Below, in pieces: positions 49,961 to 57,618 of a DNA stretch of 64,000 nucleotides. The notes beneath the pieces were generated by a model. It was not told the DNA's origin and made no database searches. It worked only from the letters and a program-made list of their open reading frames with translations. The DNA is from an uncultured Lentisphaeria bacterium (GTDB lineage: Bacteria > Verrucomicrobiota > Lentisphaeria > Victivallales > UBA1829), in assembly GCA_949282305.1 (NCBI GenBank), contig CASDPB010000036.1:130425-194424 (forward strand), read 5' to 3'. The position numbers and the translations under genes were made by a program. Positions within the stretch are counted from its first letter, which is position 1. Every line of letters starts with the position of its first letter.

Positions 49961-51166
49961 TCAGTCTTCCGTCGGGAGCGCCGCAGCGGTTGCAGGAGCC
50001 GTTTCCGGAACTGCTTCCCGCGGGGCGTCCTTCTGATATACGTTATAGTCGTCGCCGAACTGTTTCGCAAACTCCATGGCGAAATACTGATAGAGAACCA
50101 GAAGTGGAAGGAATACGACCGCCCACAGATAGGGCAGCCAGAGAATTGCGACCCACAGACAGCAGAGGCAGCATGTGACGATGAAAAGCAAAATCAGGCA
50201 GATGCAGGTTGCGACCGTCGCAAAGTACACGAAAATGTAATATTTCAGAATCGGCCAGATGTTGGCGGCAACCAGCGCGAATACCTGCTTGAAAGCCGGC
50301 CATGCCGTGATTTGCCTGCGGAACATGAGAAGCGTTCCGAATTCCTTGAACGTCCCCAGAACGAAAATGAACGGGATTGCAATGCAGAATGTCAGAAGCA
50401 GGGAGAAGATGGCGGGCGCCGGAGCAATCGGTGCGTCTGGCGCCGCAATCCATGCTTTGGTTATGGGGTGCAGAAGAAAATAGAACGCCGGGCAGAAGAG
50501 GAGGACGAAGAGAAGCGAGAGAATGCCGACTGTGACACTATACTTGAAGAGAGAATTTCCGGTGACGCGGCTTTCGCGCCATTTCTCCCTGAGCGAAAAC
50601 TGCTGCGTATCGTCCGCCAGTGCGCTGATGAACATCATCCGTCCGCGGGATGTGATCCAGACGATGACAAGGATGAGTGCCAGGCTGAGCAGGAAGAGCG
50701 GGACGCCGATGATGAAAAGCAGCAGACGGAAAGTTAACGTCTGCTTGTCCTCTTTTCCGGAAAACCGGAGTTTCCCGTCTTTTGTGGAGGAGATGTTTAC
50801 GGACAGCGGAGGATTTTCGTTCTGCGCGGGTGCCGTGACTTCCGTTTTTCCTTTTTCAACTTTTACGGAAACGCGTTCCGCCTCTTTTTCATCTTCAGCC
50901 GTGACCTTTTCATAGGTGACATTGCCGTCCGCCGTATTCAGGACGGGAGCATCCAGGAATACTCGCTCTTCCCCGATGAATGCGTTGAGGAACGGTTCCA
51001 GGTCATTAACAGGAATATGGATATTGGTGGAAAACTGTCCCAGACACGCCAGCCACGCAATGAACGCCAGTTTCAGGTAAAACCCGAGATTGAACGGTTT
51101 GAAGAGCTTTTTTATCGTCAAATCAATTGCATTGCCGAATGGTTCGAACACTCTGAAAATCCTCAT
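49961..51166 (-). CDS. Unknown polytopic membrane protein
   Basis: A 401-residue protein. A helix near residues 25-45 is followed by a periplasmic-like charged region (about 50-135), then some six to seven hydrophobic segments (RLLLFIIGVPLFLLSLALILVIVW onward), and an Ala/Pro/Glu-rich tail. One loop (RGRMMFISALADDTQQFSLREKWRE) recalls DUF4013-like proteins of planctomycetes and their relatives. The start at 51166 fits a family-like MRIFRVFEPF beginning, with AAGGA upstream. No function can be given. Confidence 0.7.
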   Translation of the reverse strand: MRIFRVFEPFGNAIDLTIKKLFKPFNLGFYLKLAFIAWLACLGQFSTNIHIPVNDLEPFLNAFIGEERVFLDAPVLNTADGNVTYEKVTAEDEKEAERVSVKVEKGKTEVTAPAQNENPPLSVNISSTKDGKLRFSGKEDKQTLTFRLLLFIIGVPLFLLSLALILVIVWITSRGRMMFISALADDTQQFSLREKWRESRVTGNSLFKYSVTVGILSLLFVLLFCPAFYFLLHPITKAWIAAPDAPIAPAPAIFSLLLTFCIAIPFIFVLGTFKEFGTLLMFRRQITAWPAFKQVFALVAANIWPILKYYIFVYFATVATCICLILLFIVTCCLCCLWVAILWLPYLWAVVFLPLLVLYQYFAMEFAKQFGDDYNVYQKDAPREAVPETAPATAAALPTED

Positions 51167-51733
51167 ATCCTGTTTTCCTTTCTGTTTTTTATTGTTGAAT
51201 TCAGATTGGAGACGGAGCATTATCGAACGTGGAAACTGCCGGAATATTTCCGACGGAAAAACGGAGATCCTGAATCTCAAGCCCGGCAGATTCCATTGTC
51301 ACGGCGAAATCTCTCCTTTTCTGATTATACAGCCAGTGCTGCAAGAGCGGTATTTCCGATCTCCAGTCTTTACTTCTTTTCCGACATTCCCCGCAGTTCT
51401 ACTGGGAACTTTAGCATAAAACAGGACAAAAGCAACATTTCAGCTTAAATTCCCGTCAAAATTTTTTGAGACAGCCAATGTCTGACAGATCAGCGCTTTG
51501 CCTATTATTCAGATCACTGCTCCGCCGCCATGAACCAGCATCTCATGAATTGAGAATCCTTGCCGGGACAGCCTGACTGTACAAACAGGGAACCGCCGGT
51601 GAAATCGGCTTGTTTTCTGCCGTATATGTTCTGTCAAGGGAGAGTTTTGATAAGATTGTCCATTTCTTTTCCGAAAGAAATCAGCATGATTTTGGTCAAA
51701 ATGAAAAAAATGGGAAAATTTCATTTTCATTAC

Positions 51734-51760
51734 TTGACTGTACTATTTTATTGGTACAAT
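51734..51760 (+). promoter_or_regulatory. Promoter and palindrome before the GntR gene
   Basis: TTGACT (51734-51739), a 15-base spacer and TACAAT (51755-51760). TGTAC (51739-51743) and GTACA (51754-51758) form an inverted repeat over the -10, a fit for autoregulation by the YtrA-type repressor. A second TGACTGTAC copy is at 51574-51582. Confidence 0.5.
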
Positions 51761-51829: not shown

Positions 51830-52219
51830 ATGTTTCATCTGGATATGGCAAGCGGGATTCCGGTCTATCTTCAGATCGCGGCGGGGATTCGTGCGGAGCG
51901 TCTTTCCGGACGTTACCGGACGGGAGACCGGATTCCGCCTGTACGTGAACTTGCGCTTGCGTTGCGGGTCAACCCGAATACCGTTGCCAGGGCATATCGC
52001 TGCTTGCAGGAGGAGGGCTTTCTGGAGAGCCGTCCGGGGGGAGGAAATTATATTGCCCCGATCCCGTCGGAGACAGACCATGCGGAACGTGAGGCGCATC
52101 TCTCCGAGCTTCTGGACGCCCTGCTGCGCGAAACCGACGCATTGCAGATTCCGCGTTCCCGCGTGGAAGCTGTTCTGAAACAAAAACTGAACGGGGAGGA
52201 GAGGAAAGATGTGGAGTGA
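51830..52219 (+). CDS. GntR family regulator, YtrA subfamily
   Basis: A 129-residue repressor: the HTH is IPVYLQIAAGIRAERLSGRYRTGDRIPPVRELALALRVNPNTVARAYR followed by EEGFLESRPGGGNYIA, with only a short C-terminal dimer helix, typical of YtrA. These regulators usually head operons of ABC transporters, as here. The start MFHLDMASGIP fits the family; the ribosome site is weak and the leader carries heptamer repeats. It overlaps the next gene by eleven bases. Confidence 0.93.
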   Translation: MFHLDMASGIPVYLQIAAGIRAERLSGRYRTGDRIPPVRELALALRVNPNTVARAYRCLQEEGFLESRPGGGNYIAPIPSETDHAEREAHLSELLDALLRETDALQIPRSRVEAVLKQKLNGEERKDVE

Positions 52220-53906
52220 TTTTCTGATGATCTGGCGTCTGGAGTGGAAACGGAACAGATGGCTCTGGCTCGGGGCATTTGCCCTGATGCTGGGAGGTCG
52301 TATTTTCTATGAGACAGTTTCCGGGAATATTTCTGCCGTTGCCAAACTCTTTTTGCTGATTATCGGCTGTCTTTCTCCTGTTTTATTTGTGGATTCCCTG
52401 CTTTGCCATCTGCGCAGTCGGACTTTGCCGTTTCTCCTGACCTTGCCCTGTTCTGCGAACCGCTTTTACTGGATCACCTGCCTGGGCAGTCTGTTTCTCT
52501 CTTTCCTTGCCGCGTTCTGCTGCTGGTGCGGATGGCATATTTTCGCCGACAGCTTTATTTTCCCGTATCTGATCGTTGTCATATCCATTCACGCGCTTTG
52601 CTTTTTCGGCAACATCGCATGCCGTGACCGGCTGGGAATATTGTTCGGTCTTCTGCTTTTCATTGCTCTGTGCTTTCTCTGGATTCCTTTCTTTCTGATT
52701 GTCAAGCTCATGGTCTTGTTCTGGTTTGAAGCAAATATACTTTCGCCATTCTTTTATATCCTGCCTTTGGGGGCACTGACGTTTTTTCTGGAAGGATGGC
52801 GCCTCTGGACCCGTTTCATTGTTTATCAGCGTTCCGTGATACGTGAACTGGTCCGTTTTGCCGTGGTCGTCGTTCTGCTTCCTGTCTTCCTGGGGATTGC
52901 CGCTTATGGCGGAGTCATAGCTTATGATATTCACTTGAACCGTCATTATAAAGCACTGATAAAACAGCGCGTGCTTGATTTGCGTCCATCCGCACAGAAA
53001 TATCCAGCCTATTTTCTGGATTTCACTCCGCTTCTGCCGGAGAAGGTATCACAGACTGTGCCGGACACCGTATTGGCTGAGATCTGTCATACCGTAGCGG
53101 CGAAAGGCGACGGAACCTCTTTCCGGACTTTTTCCTGCGTCGGATACCCGGGCACGCTTAAAGGGGAATATCCGGTCGTCTGCCGTTATCTGGGCAGTTT
53201 GGATTCCTGCTTCGGCGCTTATTTTGAGTCCTCGTGCAACGCGGGGAAATGGCGGGAAGCGGAGGAAGTTTACCGGGCGATGATGATTCTTTCCCGGTAT
53301 CCGGAACCGTATGGCGCTTCTGTATTGCGATCGCGGGAGAGGGTTTATTATGAGTGTTTCGAGGTGCTGATGAAGCCTGACATCGGGCGCGAGGGCTTGC
53401 GGATGATGAAAGACCTGCTTGCACGATGTGAACAGATGGAGTATCCGGAGTTTACCCGTGTCATGTGGTGTTGTGATAATTTTTCTTTTCGTGAAATGTT
53501 TTCCGAAAGACGTTTTTTTCTGGATTTCATTTCTTCTTATTTCCATCCGCGTTTCCTGAACTACTGCAGGAATCAGGAATTGGAACGGCTGCCGCCGACT
53601 GTGACTCCACGGAGTCTTGAAGATGTGGTGAGACTTGCCAGAAAATATGATCTTGTGCCTGAACCTTATTTTTTCCTTTTTGTGAAACTGACTGCCGTGG
53701 AAGCGCTGCGGATCAAAATCGAATATCTGGAGCACGGAACTCTGCCGACTGTGCGGAAGGAGTCTTCTTTGCTTATTGTGCAGCTGCAGGGTGAAAAAGT
53801 CGAAATCCGCTGGAAGTTCATAAATGTTTCTTGTGCGGGTGGTTATCTCAGCCATTTTGTTTTGGAACTGCCGAAAACAACTAAACAGGGAAAGGGGATG
53901 AAATGA
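52209..53906 (+). CDS. ABC-type permease-like protein with large soluble C-terminal domain (copy 1)
   Basis: A 565-residue protein. Residues 1-240 hold about six membrane segments, the last at about 217-240. Residues 245-565 are soluble, helical and partly TPR-like (REAEEVYRAMMILSRYPEP, FEVLMKPDIGREGLRMMKDL). It is a paralog of the next gene, sharing nearly identical first 28 residues. With the GntR regulator and the ABC ATPase it forms a YtrA-type operon, so it is probably a membrane component of an ABC exporter or a regulator of one. The function of the soluble part is unknown. Start 52209 overlaps the GntR gene. Confidence 0.75.
   Translation: MWSDFLMIWRLEWKRNRWLWLGAFALMLGGRIFYETVSGNISAVAKLFLLIIGCLSPVLFVDSLLCHLRSRTLPFLLTLPCSANRFYWITCLGSLFLSFLAAFCCWCGWHIFADSFIFPYLIVVISIHALCFFGNIACRDRLGILFGLLLFIALCFLWIPFFLIVKLMVLFWFEANILSPFFYILPLGALTFFLEGWRLWTRFIVYQRSVIRELVRFAVVVVLLPVFLGIAAYGGVIAYDIHLNRHYKALIKQRVLDLRPSAQKYPAYFLDFTPLLPEKVSQTVPDTVLAEICHTVAAKGDGTSFRTFSCVGYPGTLKGEYPVVCRYLGSLDSCFGAYFESSCNAGKWREAEEVYRAMMILSRYPEPYGASVLRSRERVYYECFEVLMKPDIGREGLRMMKDLLARCEQMEYPEFTRVMWCCDNFSFREMFSERRFFLDFISSYFHPRFLNYCRNQELERLPPTVTPRSLEDVVRLARKYDLVPEPYFFLFVKLTAVEALRIKIEYLEHGTLPTVRKESSLLIVQLQGEKVEIRWKFINVSCAGGYLSHFVLELPKTTKQGKGMK
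52214..52297 (+). repeat. 84-bp direct repeat, copy 1
   Basis: Matches 53905-53988 at 82 of 84 positions and covers the codons for the first membrane helix of each permease. Confidence 0.9.
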
Positions 53907-55672
53907 GTGATTTTCTGATGATCTGGCGTCTGGAGGGGAAACAGAACAGATGGCTCTGGCTCGGGGCATTTGCCCTGATGCTGGGAGGGCAGGGGACGTT
54001 GTTCCTGTTGAGAGAGAGCCTGCCGGAAGTTCTGCAATGGTTTCCGGTCATACTGGCATTTCTGTCGCCGTTGTTTTTCGCCTCGGGAATACCGCTGATG
54101 ATTGCGAAAAAACAGTTGCCGCTTTTCCTGACTCTGCCGGTCGGGAGCCGGAAAATCTACTGGAACTATTACTCCGGCTCCCTGCTGCTGTGCCTCATTT
54201 TCGCTTCGACCCTGTTTCTGACGCAGGCATTTATTCTGCGGAATCTGATTCTCGGGACTTCCCTGCTTCTGCTTGTTCATGCGGCTATGTTCTGGGGCGG
54301 TTTGCTCCGTCGGGACGGCAGCGGTTCCGTGGTCGGACTGCTGATATTGTTTCCTCTGTATCTGGCATGTTATCCTCTGATCCAGTTCCTGACTGCTTTG
54401 CTTGCGGCATTGTCATCCTGGTCTCCGGAAATCGAATCTGTTCTGTGTCTGCTTACAGGAGAAAATGCGCCGCTGCCGACCTCGGAGTATTATATTACCG
54501 TGCCGTTGATTGCCCTGGCGTCTGCTTCGGCATTTGCTCTTGCCGGTGCGTCTCTCTGGAATCAAGAGGTAATCCGCGGCAGAAAGGGAATGAAGCGGAC
54601 TGTATGGTTTACCGTTCTTCTGCTGACAACTCCTTTCCTGGCGGCTGTCCTGGGATATGTTGCCGTTTCCTGGGCGGACTGTCTGCTGCATGACTATTGG
54701 AGCCGCCAACCGGGATTCTGGAGCGATGAAAAACCGTTTCGGATTACGTATCCCGAGTTTTACCGGACGACTTCTATGCGGAAACAGGAACATGTGCCGG
54801 GAGGCGTGAAACGCTATGTCGTCGATCCTGAAAAAGTGCTGCTGTTTTGCCGCCGGCTCCAAAATGAGACTGATACGGCAAAACGTGTCATGACGACATG
54901 TGATCTGCCTTTCCTACTGGATTACTATGGCTATATCCCGCGGTCATTGTCATACTTTGCAATTTCGGATTACAACTGCTTTCCAATGGCGCTGAAAGCG
55001 TTTCTGGAGCAGAAACGCTGGGACGATGCGAAAGAGATACTGAAATGTTCGGAGCTTCTTTTTGTATATATTCATCCGCAGTATTTTGAGCTGCTCTTCA
55101 CAAAACTGTATCTGCTGCGGTGCGAACTGAAAGTGATTTGCATTTACGCGGGGGATGAACCTGAAGCGGCTTCCGTCATGCAGGTACTGCTGAAACAATT
55201 GGAAAAACTTTCCCTGAGTCTGTCCTATCTTCCTGATGTGCGACTGCCGTCAAATGCCGGAATCTTTGAGATTCCGAAGGATATTTCCGGTGACGGCGGT
55301 CTGCTGCGGCGCTGTGCGGACGCGCGTTTCCGCCATATCTTTGTTTATTGGAAGATTGCCAGATGCAACCGGGAAATCCGGGGGGCGGTACCGTGCGGCA
55401 CACCGGAAGAGTTGTCGCGTTACGTCAAGGGAATTATAAGATTCGTGACCGTCGGATACGGAAAAAAGGCATGGATAAGAAAGGAGTTGAATCCTTATGT
55501 TTACACTTACTATTATCTCAAAGTTTTCGGGGTGACGGGGCTGCGGCGGCGGATTGCTTTTCTCGAAAAGAGTCCGCCGCCGGAACTTCCTGAACACTTG
55601 AAAATAGAAAAAGACCGTATCACGGATAAAATAACCGGTTATTCTTCATCAACTTCGGAGGGATGGCAATGA
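53903..55672 (+). CDS. ABC-type permease-like protein with large soluble C-terminal domain (copy 2)
   Basis: A 589-residue paralog of the preceding protein. About six membrane segments lie in residues 1-260, and the soluble, helical C-terminal part runs from about 265 to 589 (KAFLEQKRWDDAKEILKCSELLF recalls TPR-type pairs). The stop of the previous gene and this ATG overlap (ATGA), and this stop overlaps the ATPase start in the same way, so translation of all four genes is coupled. The two permeases may form a heterodimer served by the single ATPase. Apart from the 84-base repeat, the copies have diverged strongly. Confidence 0.75.
   Translation: MSDFLMIWRLEGKQNRWLWLGAFALMLGGQGTLFLLRESLPEVLQWFPVILAFLSPLFFASGIPLMIAKKQLPLFLTLPVGSRKIYWNYYSGSLLLCLIFASTLFLTQAFILRNLILGTSLLLLVHAAMFWGGLLRRDGSGSVVGLLILFPLYLACYPLIQFLTALLAALSSWSPEIESVLCLLTGENAPLPTSEYYITVPLIALASASAFALAGASLWNQEVIRGRKGMKRTVWFTVLLLTTPFLAAVLGYVAVSWADCLLHDYWSRQPGFWSDEKPFRITYPEFYRTTSMRKQEHVPGGVKRYVVDPEKVLLFCRRLQNETDTAKRVMTTCDLPFLLDYYGYIPRSLSYFAISDYNCFPMALKAFLEQKRWDDAKEILKCSELLFVYIHPQYFELLFTKLYLLRCELKVICIYAGDEPEAASVMQVLLKQLEKLSLSLSYLPDVRLPSNAGIFEIPKDISGDGGLLRRCADARFRHIFVYWKIARCNREIRGAVPCGTPEELSRYVKGIIRFVTVGYGKKAWIRKELNPYVYTYYYLKVFGVTGLRRRIAFLEKSPPPELPEHLKIEKDRITDKITGYSSSTSEGWQ
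53905..53988 (+). repeat. 84-bp direct repeat, copy 2
   Basis: Partner of 52214-52297; two mismatches change Trp to Gly and Arg to Gln in the encoded helix. Confidence 0.9.
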
Positions 55673-56514
55673 GCGGATATGCGATTGAAATGAAAGGTGT
55701 CGCCAAGCGTTATGGAAAACACTGTATATTGGATGGCTTTGACCTTACGGTGCCGAAAGGAGCGGTCTATGCCCTGCTGGGAAACAACGGCGCGGGGAAA
55801 AGCACTTCGATCAGACTCATGACCGGGCAGCTTCTCGCGGACTCCGGAACGATTTCCGTTCTGGGGTTGGATCCCGTGAAAGAGGCGACCGCTTTGCGCC
55901 TGCGGTTCGGCTACGTTGCGGAAACGGAGCGGCTTTTCGACTTCCTTACTCCGCCGGAACTTTTCGCATTTCTGAAGCATTTCTTCCCGGACTGGAACGA
56001 TCAACGGGCAACGGAGCTGCTGCATCGGTTCCGGCTTCCCGCAGACAAGAAAATCGGCTCGTTTTCCCGCGGCATGTATGCGAAGACCGCTCTGATTACG
56101 GTGATGGCGCGGAGACCGGAGCTCGTGATTCTCGACGATCCGGCGCTCGGACTGGATACCGTCAGCCGTTCGGACTTCATGACACAGCTCATCGAGTCCA
56201 TTCAGGAATATGAGCATACGATTCTCCTGAGTTCACATCTGATTCCCGAAGTGGAAGGAGTCTGCGACTATGTCGGCATCCTGCGGAACGGGAAGCTGCT
56301 TTGTTCGCAGGATACCGAGTCCCTGAAATCGCGTTTCCGGCGGATTCGTCTGCCCGGAGAGGAAACTGCGAAGATGACAGGGGAAATCTGCCGGAAAAAG
56401 ATTGCCGGAACAGATTATGTCGTGGCGGATGTCTCCGTAAACCGTTCCCTGCGGAACGACGGGGAAGCTATGACGCTGGAAGAGATTTTTCTTGCCTTGA
56501 CCGGCGGAGAATGA
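55669..56514 (+). CDS. ABC transporter ATP-binding protein (YtrB-like)
   Basis: A 281-residue ATPase. Walker A is LLGNNGAGKSTS (about residue 40), the signature is degenerate (GSFSRGMYAKTAL instead of LSGGQ), Walker B is LVILDDPALGLD, and SSHLIPEVEGVCD carries the switch histidine. The degenerate signature is common in YtrB-type and other ABC-2 exporters. The ATG at 55669 has GGAGG upstream; an ATG two codons earlier is too close to it. It energises the two permeases in the same operon. Confidence 0.93.
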   Translation: MSGYAIEMKGVAKRYGKHCILDGFDLTVPKGAVYALLGNNGAGKSTSIRLMTGQLLADSGTISVLGLDPVKEATALRLRFGYVAETERLFDFLTPPELFAFLKHFFPDWNDQRATELLHRFRLPADKKIGSFSRGMYAKTALITVMARRPELVILDDPALGLDTVSRSDFMTQLIESIQEYEHTILLSSHLIPEVEGVCDYVGILRNGKLLCSQDTESLKSRFRRIRLPGEETAKMTGEICRKKIAGTDYVVADVSVNRSLRNDGEAMTLEEIFLALTGGE

Positions 56515-56925
56515 CTACTTGCACCCGCAGGTTCCGCGGTAGCAGATATGAACTTCCTCAATCTTGAACGAGGAGGGCAGGGAGGGCGTTTTCTGCTCCG
56601 GCAGGTCGAAAAGATCATAGACGCCGCCGCAGATCCGGCACTTGAAATGAGCGTGTGGGCGGAGATCGGCATCAAAACGCAGTTCGCCGTCTTCGATGAT
56701 GACCGTGGAGACCGCTTTTTCCCTGACCAGAAGTTTCAGGGTGTTGTAAATTGTTGTCCGCGACAATGACGGCTGGGATGCGATGATTGCCTGATAGATT
56801 GTGTCCGCCGTCGGGTGAACCGGATGCGAGAGCAGATAGGCATAGACCGCCAGGCGCTGAGGCGAAGGGCGGATGCCGAGTTCCCGGAGACGTTCCGCCG
56901 GATTGATTTGCAAGGCTGTCTGCAT
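56515..56925 (-). CDS. Fur family regulator, PerR-like
   Basis: A 136-residue Fur-family protein: the winged HTH is RLAVYAYLLSHPVHPTADTIYQAI with SRTTIYNTLKLLVREKAV, then the metal/dimer domain DADLRPHAHFKCRICGGVYDL, with a C-terminal cysteine-rich CYRGTCGCK tail forming with the CxxC the structural zinc site. The peroxide sensor PerR and the iron regulator Fur share this shape. The rubrerythrin gene upstream in the same direction, with a PerR-like box, favours PerR. It starts 63 bases after that gene. Confidence 0.92.
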   Translation of the reverse strand: MQTALQINPAERLRELGIRPSPQRLAVYAYLLSHPVHPTADTIYQAIIASQPSLSRTTIYNTLKLLVREKAVSTVIIEDGELRFDADLRPHAHFKCRICGGVYDLFDLPEQKTPSLPSSFKIEEVHICYRGTCGCK

Positions 56926-56988
56926 ATTTCACATCCTTTCGGGAGTAAAAAGCTGCCGGTTCGCCCGGCAGCTTCGGAGCTGAAAACA

Positions 56989-57540
56989 TTATTTGGAGAA
57001 ATAACGGTTCAGAAGTCCGTTGAAAGCGGAGCCGTGACGGGCTTCGTCTTTGCACATTTCATGGACAGTGTCATGAATGGCATCATAGCCGAGGGCTTTC
57101 GCTTTCTTCGCAAGTTCGAGCTTTCCGGCCGTCGCGCCGTGTTCCGCTTCAACACGAACCTTGAGGTTGGTCTTGGTGCAGGGAACCACGACTTCGCCGA
57201 GGAGCTCCGCGAATTTTGCGGCATGTTCGGCTTCTTCAAAGGCAATGCGCTTATAGGCTTCGGCGACTTCCGGATAACCTTCGCGATCCGCCTGACGGCT
57301 CATTGCGAGATACATTCCGACTTCGGTGCATTCACCGTTGAAGTTGGCGCGGAGTCCTTCGACGACTTCCGGATCAATTCCCTCCACGGAACCGATTCTG
57401 TGTTCATCTGCCCAGACCAGAGCCTCGCCTTCCTTCTTTTCCACGAATTTGGATTTCGGAGCCTTGCACTGGGGACAGGATTCCGGAGCTTCTTCACCGA
57501 CGTAGACATACCCGCACACGGAGCATACAAATGATTTCAT
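56989..57540 (-). CDS. Rubrerythrin (N-terminal rubredoxin type)
   Basis: A 183-residue reverse rubrerythrin. The rubredoxin iron is held by Cys6, 9, 22 and 25 ([15 protein letters not shown]), followed by a four-helix di-iron domain ([28 protein letters not shown]). It reduces hydrogen peroxide with electrons from NADH via flavodoxin or rubredoxin reductases, protecting anaerobes. The start at 57540 has GGTGG upstream. A PerR-like box overlaps its promoter. It is followed by the Fur/PerR regulator gene. Confidence 0.95.
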
Positions 57541-57589
57541 GTTACCACCCTTTTTGTTGTTTGTTATATTTCGGCGTTTCCGCCATTTC

Positions 57590-57618
57590 ATTATAATCTG
57601 TAATGATTACAAAATTAA
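57590..57618 (-). promoter_or_regulatory. Rubrerythrin promoter with PerR-like box
   Basis: Leftward TATAAT (57595-57590) with a weak -35 TTAATT 17 bases upstream. TGTAAT-G-ATTACA (57599-57611), a perfect 6-1-6 palindrome close to the PerR consensus TTATAATnATTATAA, sits between them. The remaining bases to 57892 hold no gene. Confidence 0.65.

Follow-up and report, generated by a model that had tools for sequence, protein, structure and literature searches.

A probable YtrA/Pmt-type ABC-2 transporter operon with large, probably external permease tails in an uncultured Lentisphaeria bacterium

Here we describe a four-gene operon in a 64-kb stretch of the genome of an uncultured Lentisphaeria bacterium (hereafter, the window). 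It is a member of a small transporter family, a variant on the YtrA/Pmt-type pump rather than a new machine. In the reading that we favor, to which we give a probability of about one half, the operon would encode a self-regulated ABC-2 transporter in the YtrA/Pmt style, slow-cycling and gated by external tails, that acts on an envelope-active lipophilic substrate. The features of the locus are the following.

51739-51758, + strand: predicted YtrA-type operator, TGTACTATTTTATTGGTACA, a 20-bp palindrome of the form TGTAYTA-N6-TRRTACA (motif conservation)
51830-52219, + strand: putative GntR-family repressor, YtrA type, 129 aa (PF00392, 8.3e-15)
52209-53906, + strand: ABC-2-type permease A, 565 aa, seven predicted transmembrane (TM) helices and a C-terminal tail (homologous to relatives that match ABC2_membrane_4)
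52214-52297, + strand: copy 1 of an 84-nt direct repeat, codons ~3-30 of permease A (98% identical to copy 2)
52905-53903, + strand: predicted extracytoplasmic tail of permease A, residues ~233-565 (tail-family HMM, E = 2.5e-4)
53903-55672, + strand: ABC-2-type permease B, 589 aa, seven predicted TM helices and a C-terminal tail
53905-53988, + strand: copy 2 of the 84-nt direct repeat, codons ~2-29 of permease B (98% identical to copy 1)
54668-55669, + strand: predicted extracytoplasmic tail of permease B, residues ~256-589 (paralogy with the A tail)
55669-56514, + strand: ABC ATPase, 281 aa (PF00005, 1.4e-23)

A preliminary description of the locus had reported four coupled genes with overlaps of 11, 4 and 4 bases, and these positions proved exact. 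The open reading frames at 51830-56514 all lie on the forward strand in the order GntR-permease-permease-ATPase, an alternative start (ATG at 55663) being also possible for the ATPase gene. Such coupling is not a product of chance, because the architecture recurs in a congeneric genome (G003) and in distant genomes. The operon is isolated: its upstream neighbor is a divergent gene for a DUF7544 membrane protein (49961-51280, minus strand) and its downstream boundary is a convergent FUR-family gene that begins at 56515. At 56515-57591 (minus strand), this FUR-family regulator (PF01475) stands beside a rubrerythrin (PF02915), and the two are likely a peroxide-response pair. Horizontal import of the operon is not favored, since the four genes and their neighbors have largely overlapping GC3 values (0.54-0.65 and 0.56-0.70, respectively). 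A defense system was also considered and rejected, the PADLOC matches being limited to generic ATPase models.

The regulator has the build of the YtrA subfamily of GntR proteins, that is, a winged helix and a reduced C-terminal part (PMC4494728). PF00392 covers residues 13-75 and is followed by only about 50 aa, and the gene is encoded together with an ABC transporter. Over its full length, the protein is similar to short GntR proteins with solved structures (for example, 3neu) and to PmtR. Moreover, the candidate operator at 51739-51758, like those of the relatives, is a single long palindrome upstream of the operon with GT and AC far from the center, as in YtrA sites in general (PMC4494728). 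The pattern was defined from the upstream regions of six operons, and a strict match precedes all 15 related operons with a readable 5' end, nine of which had not been used for defining it. There is only one strict match in the window and only one in the whole genome to which it belongs (G000). In a scan of 12 genomes, a single site was found in G000, G003, G020, G066, G059 and G067, each time before a tailed-permease operon; four operon-less genomes had no site and the reversed control gave zero. The same scan showed one extra site in G050 and two in G056. One of the extra sites heads an ordinary YtrA operon composed of GntR, ATPase and an 11-TM permease, and for the extra strict matches L106 (G050:C62:7072-7091) and L108 (G056:C24) no obvious ABC operon was present in the stretch read, one of them being near a contig end. 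In the window, the predicted operator adjoins a TTGACT hexamer and probably overlaps the promoter. Given its conservation and its closeness to the YtrA site of Bacillus subtilis (AGTGTA-13bp-TACACT; PMC8060467), it is natural to infer that the GntR protein regulates its own operon at this palindrome.

The ATPase has a Walker A motif (GNNGAGKS), signature (FSRG), Walker B motif (LVILDDP) and H-loop (SSH), and its D-loop is kept. The Walker B Asp, however, is followed by a second Asp in place of the catalytic Glu, a conservative change. Asp occupies this position in all 12 readable ATPases of the family. Glu is found there in every other ABC ATPase of the same genome with a readable Walker B, in related host-family ATPases, in the second YtrA operon of G056, in the outgroups G063 and G043, and in the YtrA-linked ATPases of S. 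agalactiae, C. difficile and Vescimonas. As the operon has a single ATPase gene, Asp would stand at both sites of the ATPase pair. Type I exporter sites with Asp at the catalytic Glu position still hydrolyze ATP, although slowly (PMC7756269). By analogy, the substitution may slow the ATP cycle of the ABC-2 transporter in the window, an effect known from type I exporters and not from ABC-2 ATPases. The nearest named ATPase families are DrrA and PmtA, both below their cut-offs.

The two large proteins are paralogous, as had been proposed, with 27-29% identity overall. The six membrane segments attributed to each have to be revised, since hydropathy and the positive-inside rule support seven. Seven TM helices were obtained by hydropathy for permease B, for both G003 paralogs and for most distant relatives; in permease A, the first helix does not reach the hydropathy threshold, yet it can be aligned with TM1 of the other proteins. 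Loop charges alternate broadly in line with the rule, with a net positive charge ahead of TM1 and following TM2, TM4 and TM6. An odd number of helices would leave the tail outside the cytoplasm, whereas six would leave it inside, so that the tails of ~330 residues probably lie outside the inner membrane. The prediction thus departs from the ABC-2 arrangement of six TM helices with both ends cytoplasmic. No Pfam match was found in permease A or B. The membrane halves of their relatives match ABC2_membrane_4, one of them (G050) passing the curated cut-off of PF12730, and most of these give alignments with the membrane halves of the window permeases that score well above shuffled controls; on this basis, A and B are most likely ABC-2 permeases. 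A PDB sequence search with permease profiles and motif profiles gave no meaningful match, and an AlphaFold model of permease B, with A as the sole other alignment row, was uninformative (pLDDT 39).

Operons with tailed permeases were found in about 15 of the 137 genomes of the order searched with permease and ATPase profiles. In all, ~25 full-length permeases were identified. Within the genus, G003 has the whole operon, with an ATPase 73% identical to that of the window, and two of the four sampled genomes are without it. Distant operons occur in G020, G050, G056, G057, G059, G062, G064, G065, G066, G067-G069 and G125. Their permease genes vary in number from one (G057 and G067-G069) to three (G020) and to four or five (G125), so that a fixed A/B heterodimer does not hold across the family. 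In G125 (L207, 158-8362), one operator and GntR gene are followed by the four or five tailed permease genes in tandem and then by the ATPase gene. Among the other matches, that of G111 was a false positive, and G063 and G043, which have no operator, were set aside as GntR/ATPase outgroups.

The preliminary description also stated that standard YtrC/D-type permeases lack a large soluble part, which is the case for the YtrA-linked ABC-2 permeases checked in S. agalactiae and C. difficile (200-209 aa). Its alternative, that the tails are a known ABC-2 domain, did not hold, as they match no ABC-2 family. The likeness to TPR proteins turned out to be weak, consisting of one helical hairpin (KxWxEAEEIL), with no Pfam TPR match in A or B and a PPR match at E = 0.11. 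In the relatives, the tail is made up of a helical region and a conserved C-terminal module with the approximate sequence LALKxYxxEHGxxPExLxxLVPxxLxxxPxxPFxGKxxxY. Of 15 members, five match the type II pseudopilin family T2SSG (PF08334) in this module (best E = 3.8e-5). This module resembles GspG (PF08334) in having a helix followed by a P-F-x-G-K-x-x-x-Y stretch, but it is all that the two have in common, being joined in the relatives to a large helical region. In both window tails the GspG-like module is eroded, A keeping the LEHGTLP part of the C-terminal motif.

In a first HMM test, with the G057 and G125 intermediates left out, the window tail was unconvincing (rank 6 in 4000 shuffles), and hhalign of the window tails against other tails was not significant. 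When the shorter G057 and G125 tails were included, the HMM detected the A tail (E = 2.5e-4; 0 of 2000 of its own shuffles), with LEHGTLP as the aligned stretch; coming after the first test, this result supports the membership of the A tail but is not independent proof of it. The A tail also aligns with one G125 tail (z = 4.4) and with the B tail (Smith-Waterman z = 4.1). The motif of the phylum-wide tail family, LKxYxxEHGxxPExL near the C-terminus, is detected in permease A only. On its own, the B tail has diverged too far for the tail HMM to recognize it, and we infer from its paralogy with A that it belongs to the same family.

A profile of the tail module has matches in 119 of 388 genomes of the phylum, mostly in proteins of 430-750 aa that are not ABC permeases, a minority of the matches being ordinary short permeases. 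Stand-alone proteins of G236, G414 and G397 match from TM7 on, covering one TM helix and most of the tail. Five stand-alone tail genes (L144, L146, L147, L148 and L093) sit after a sigma-factor-like gene and a gene for a small protein. A sigma factor was recognized by Pfam in each of the four operons tested (L144, L147, L148 and L093); the small proteins have no Pfam identity and are often membrane-anchored, as expected of an anti-sigma factor. The tail proteins of such ECF-sigma operons (for example, L144, L147 and L093) resemble the permease tails of the relatives in having one TM helix followed by the helical region and the GspG-like module, and differ in lacking an ABC permease and in being encoded with these two partners rather than with a GntR/ABC pair. 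Elsewhere, three or four stand-alone tail proteins of ~435-510 aa form tandem arrays with no recognizable partner (L153, 4005-8325; L154, 3475-9114; L152; L163). The genome of the window also encodes, at G000:C36:23037-23264 (L091, 6044-8107), a multi-TM protein of ~690 aa with an intact GspG-like tail module, unlinked to an ABC ATPase.

The characterized models for the operon are YtrA and PmtR (PMC12772383, PMC5080381). In YtrABCD(EF) of B. subtilis, as in the window, a short GntR repressor (YtrA) shares an operon with a permease pair (YtrC/YtrD) and an ATPase (YtrB), and the YtrA operator is likewise a long palindrome with outer TGTA/TACA (AGTGTA-N13-TACACT, PMC8060467). The window operon differs in its gene order, in the predicted external tails of ~330 aa on its permeases, in the Asp at the catalytic Glu position, in the absence of YtrE/YtrF and in an inner operator spacing of 12 instead of 13. 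PmtR-PmtABCD of S. aureus also combines a short GntR repressor with an ABC-2 exporter, and its ATPase and regulator are similar to those of the window operon over most of their length; Pmt, however, has two ATPases and two permeases, whereas the window operon has one ATPase gene, and the scores fall well short of the curated NCBIfam cut-offs (PmtA, 136 vs 350 bits; PmtR, 43 vs 200 bits). A YtrA-like operon of Vescimonas fastidiosa (L189, 3139-6162) encodes a GntR protein, an ATPase with the normal Glu and a permease-like protein of 596 aa. The soluble C-terminal part of the latter is unrelated to the tails described here, and permease and tail seem to have become fused there independently.

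In the reading that we favor, the short GntR protein would repress its own operon at the palindrome until the promoter is freed by a ligand, probably membrane-active or lipophilic and tied to envelope stress. Two copies of the ATPase would then assemble with permeases A and B, the latter two probably as a heterodimer, and the complex would move the compound out of the membrane. The seventh helix would put the tail outside, where it may bind the ligand or an envelope partner and gate the pump, and with the slow ATP cycle expected of the Asp ATPase the complex may act as a ligand-gated sensor/exporter. The envelope-active, lipophilic class of substrate is suggested by the analogs, ytr of B. subtilis being induced by lipid II-cycle inhibitors (PMC12772383) and PmtR freeing its promoter when it binds the exported peptides (PMC5080381). 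A role of the tail in sensing, or in binding an envelope partner, had been proposed in the preliminary description and is made plausible by the stand-alone relatives that neighbor sigma-factor genes. The accompanying proposal of a new kind of ABC exporter found no support, given the ABC-2 membrane halves and the recognizable YtrA/Pmt-type regulator and ATPase. Peptide binding by the tail, also proposed there, was not directly supported either.

Part of these data would also fit an ordinary YtrA-regulated ABC-2 exporter, in which the tail is a passive, lineage-specific appendage (for assembly or periplasmic spacing) and the Asp is neutral. The conserved parts are all standard, the tails diverge far faster than the membrane parts and the ATPase, and the Clostridia operon L189 apparently has a permease-tail fusion of different sequence together with a normal Glu. 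Nevertheless, none of the full-length family permeases read has lost its tail and all 12 ATPases have Asp, across several families of the order, and we consider this account possible but somewhat unlikely. With slightly more doubt, the family might be a distinct transporter subfamily: an extracytoplasmic GspG-like sensor module, which elsewhere in the phylum serves in ECF-sigma operons, would have been joined to YtrA-controlled ABC-2 permeases and an obligate slow (Asp) ATPase, making the complex a ligand-gated ABC sensor and not a plain pump.

The Asp, together with the tail relatives in operons with ECF sigma and anti-sigma-like genes, would also suit a non-transporting envelope sensor whose tails detect a signal and whose ABC complex acts by conformational change; YtrBCDEF, for instance, may not act as a transporter (PMC12772383). 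Such a sensor is unlikely here, as no signaling partner is encoded beside the operon, nothing evident ties the GntR protein to the membrane complex, and Asp still permits slow hydrolysis (PMC7756269). The nearest named families include PmtA and PmtR, and PmtR leaves its promoter once it has bound the exported peptides (PMC5080381); this might point to an exporter of one specific secreted product encoded elsewhere (a peptide or a lipid carrier), as Pmt is for modulins, with the GntR protein sensing that product. This is improbable, since the genes flanking the operon (divergent DUF7544 and convergent FUR) include no recognizable product gene and the operon is missing from half of the genomes sampled in its own genus.

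If the favored reading is correct, YtrA-type ABC operons, the phylum-wide external GspG-like proteins and ECF-sigma operons would be joined, a connection that we did not find in the literature searched. One module in two regulatory settings would make its ligand testable, and a homodimeric ATPase pair with Asp at each of its ATP sites would lend itself to studying the purpose of a slow ABC cycle. Operator, DDP and tail would also form a compact signature for annotating 'hypothetical membrane proteins' of 500-700 aa.

The two permease genes begin with the copies of the 84-nt direct repeat, and the remainder of these genes has ~40% nucleotide identity. In the G003 permeases, the near-identical 5' stretch spans ~120-140 codons. 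Compared between the window and G003, the 5' block has just 65% identity. High identity within the window and low identity between the two genomes suggest that the block is homogenized within each genome, most simply by gene conversion. In genus g33 the block is also conserved between genomes, so that concerted evolution is ambiguous there. The direct repeat could drive the changes in permease number in the family, from one to four or five. A similar 5' homogenization was seen in several related operons.
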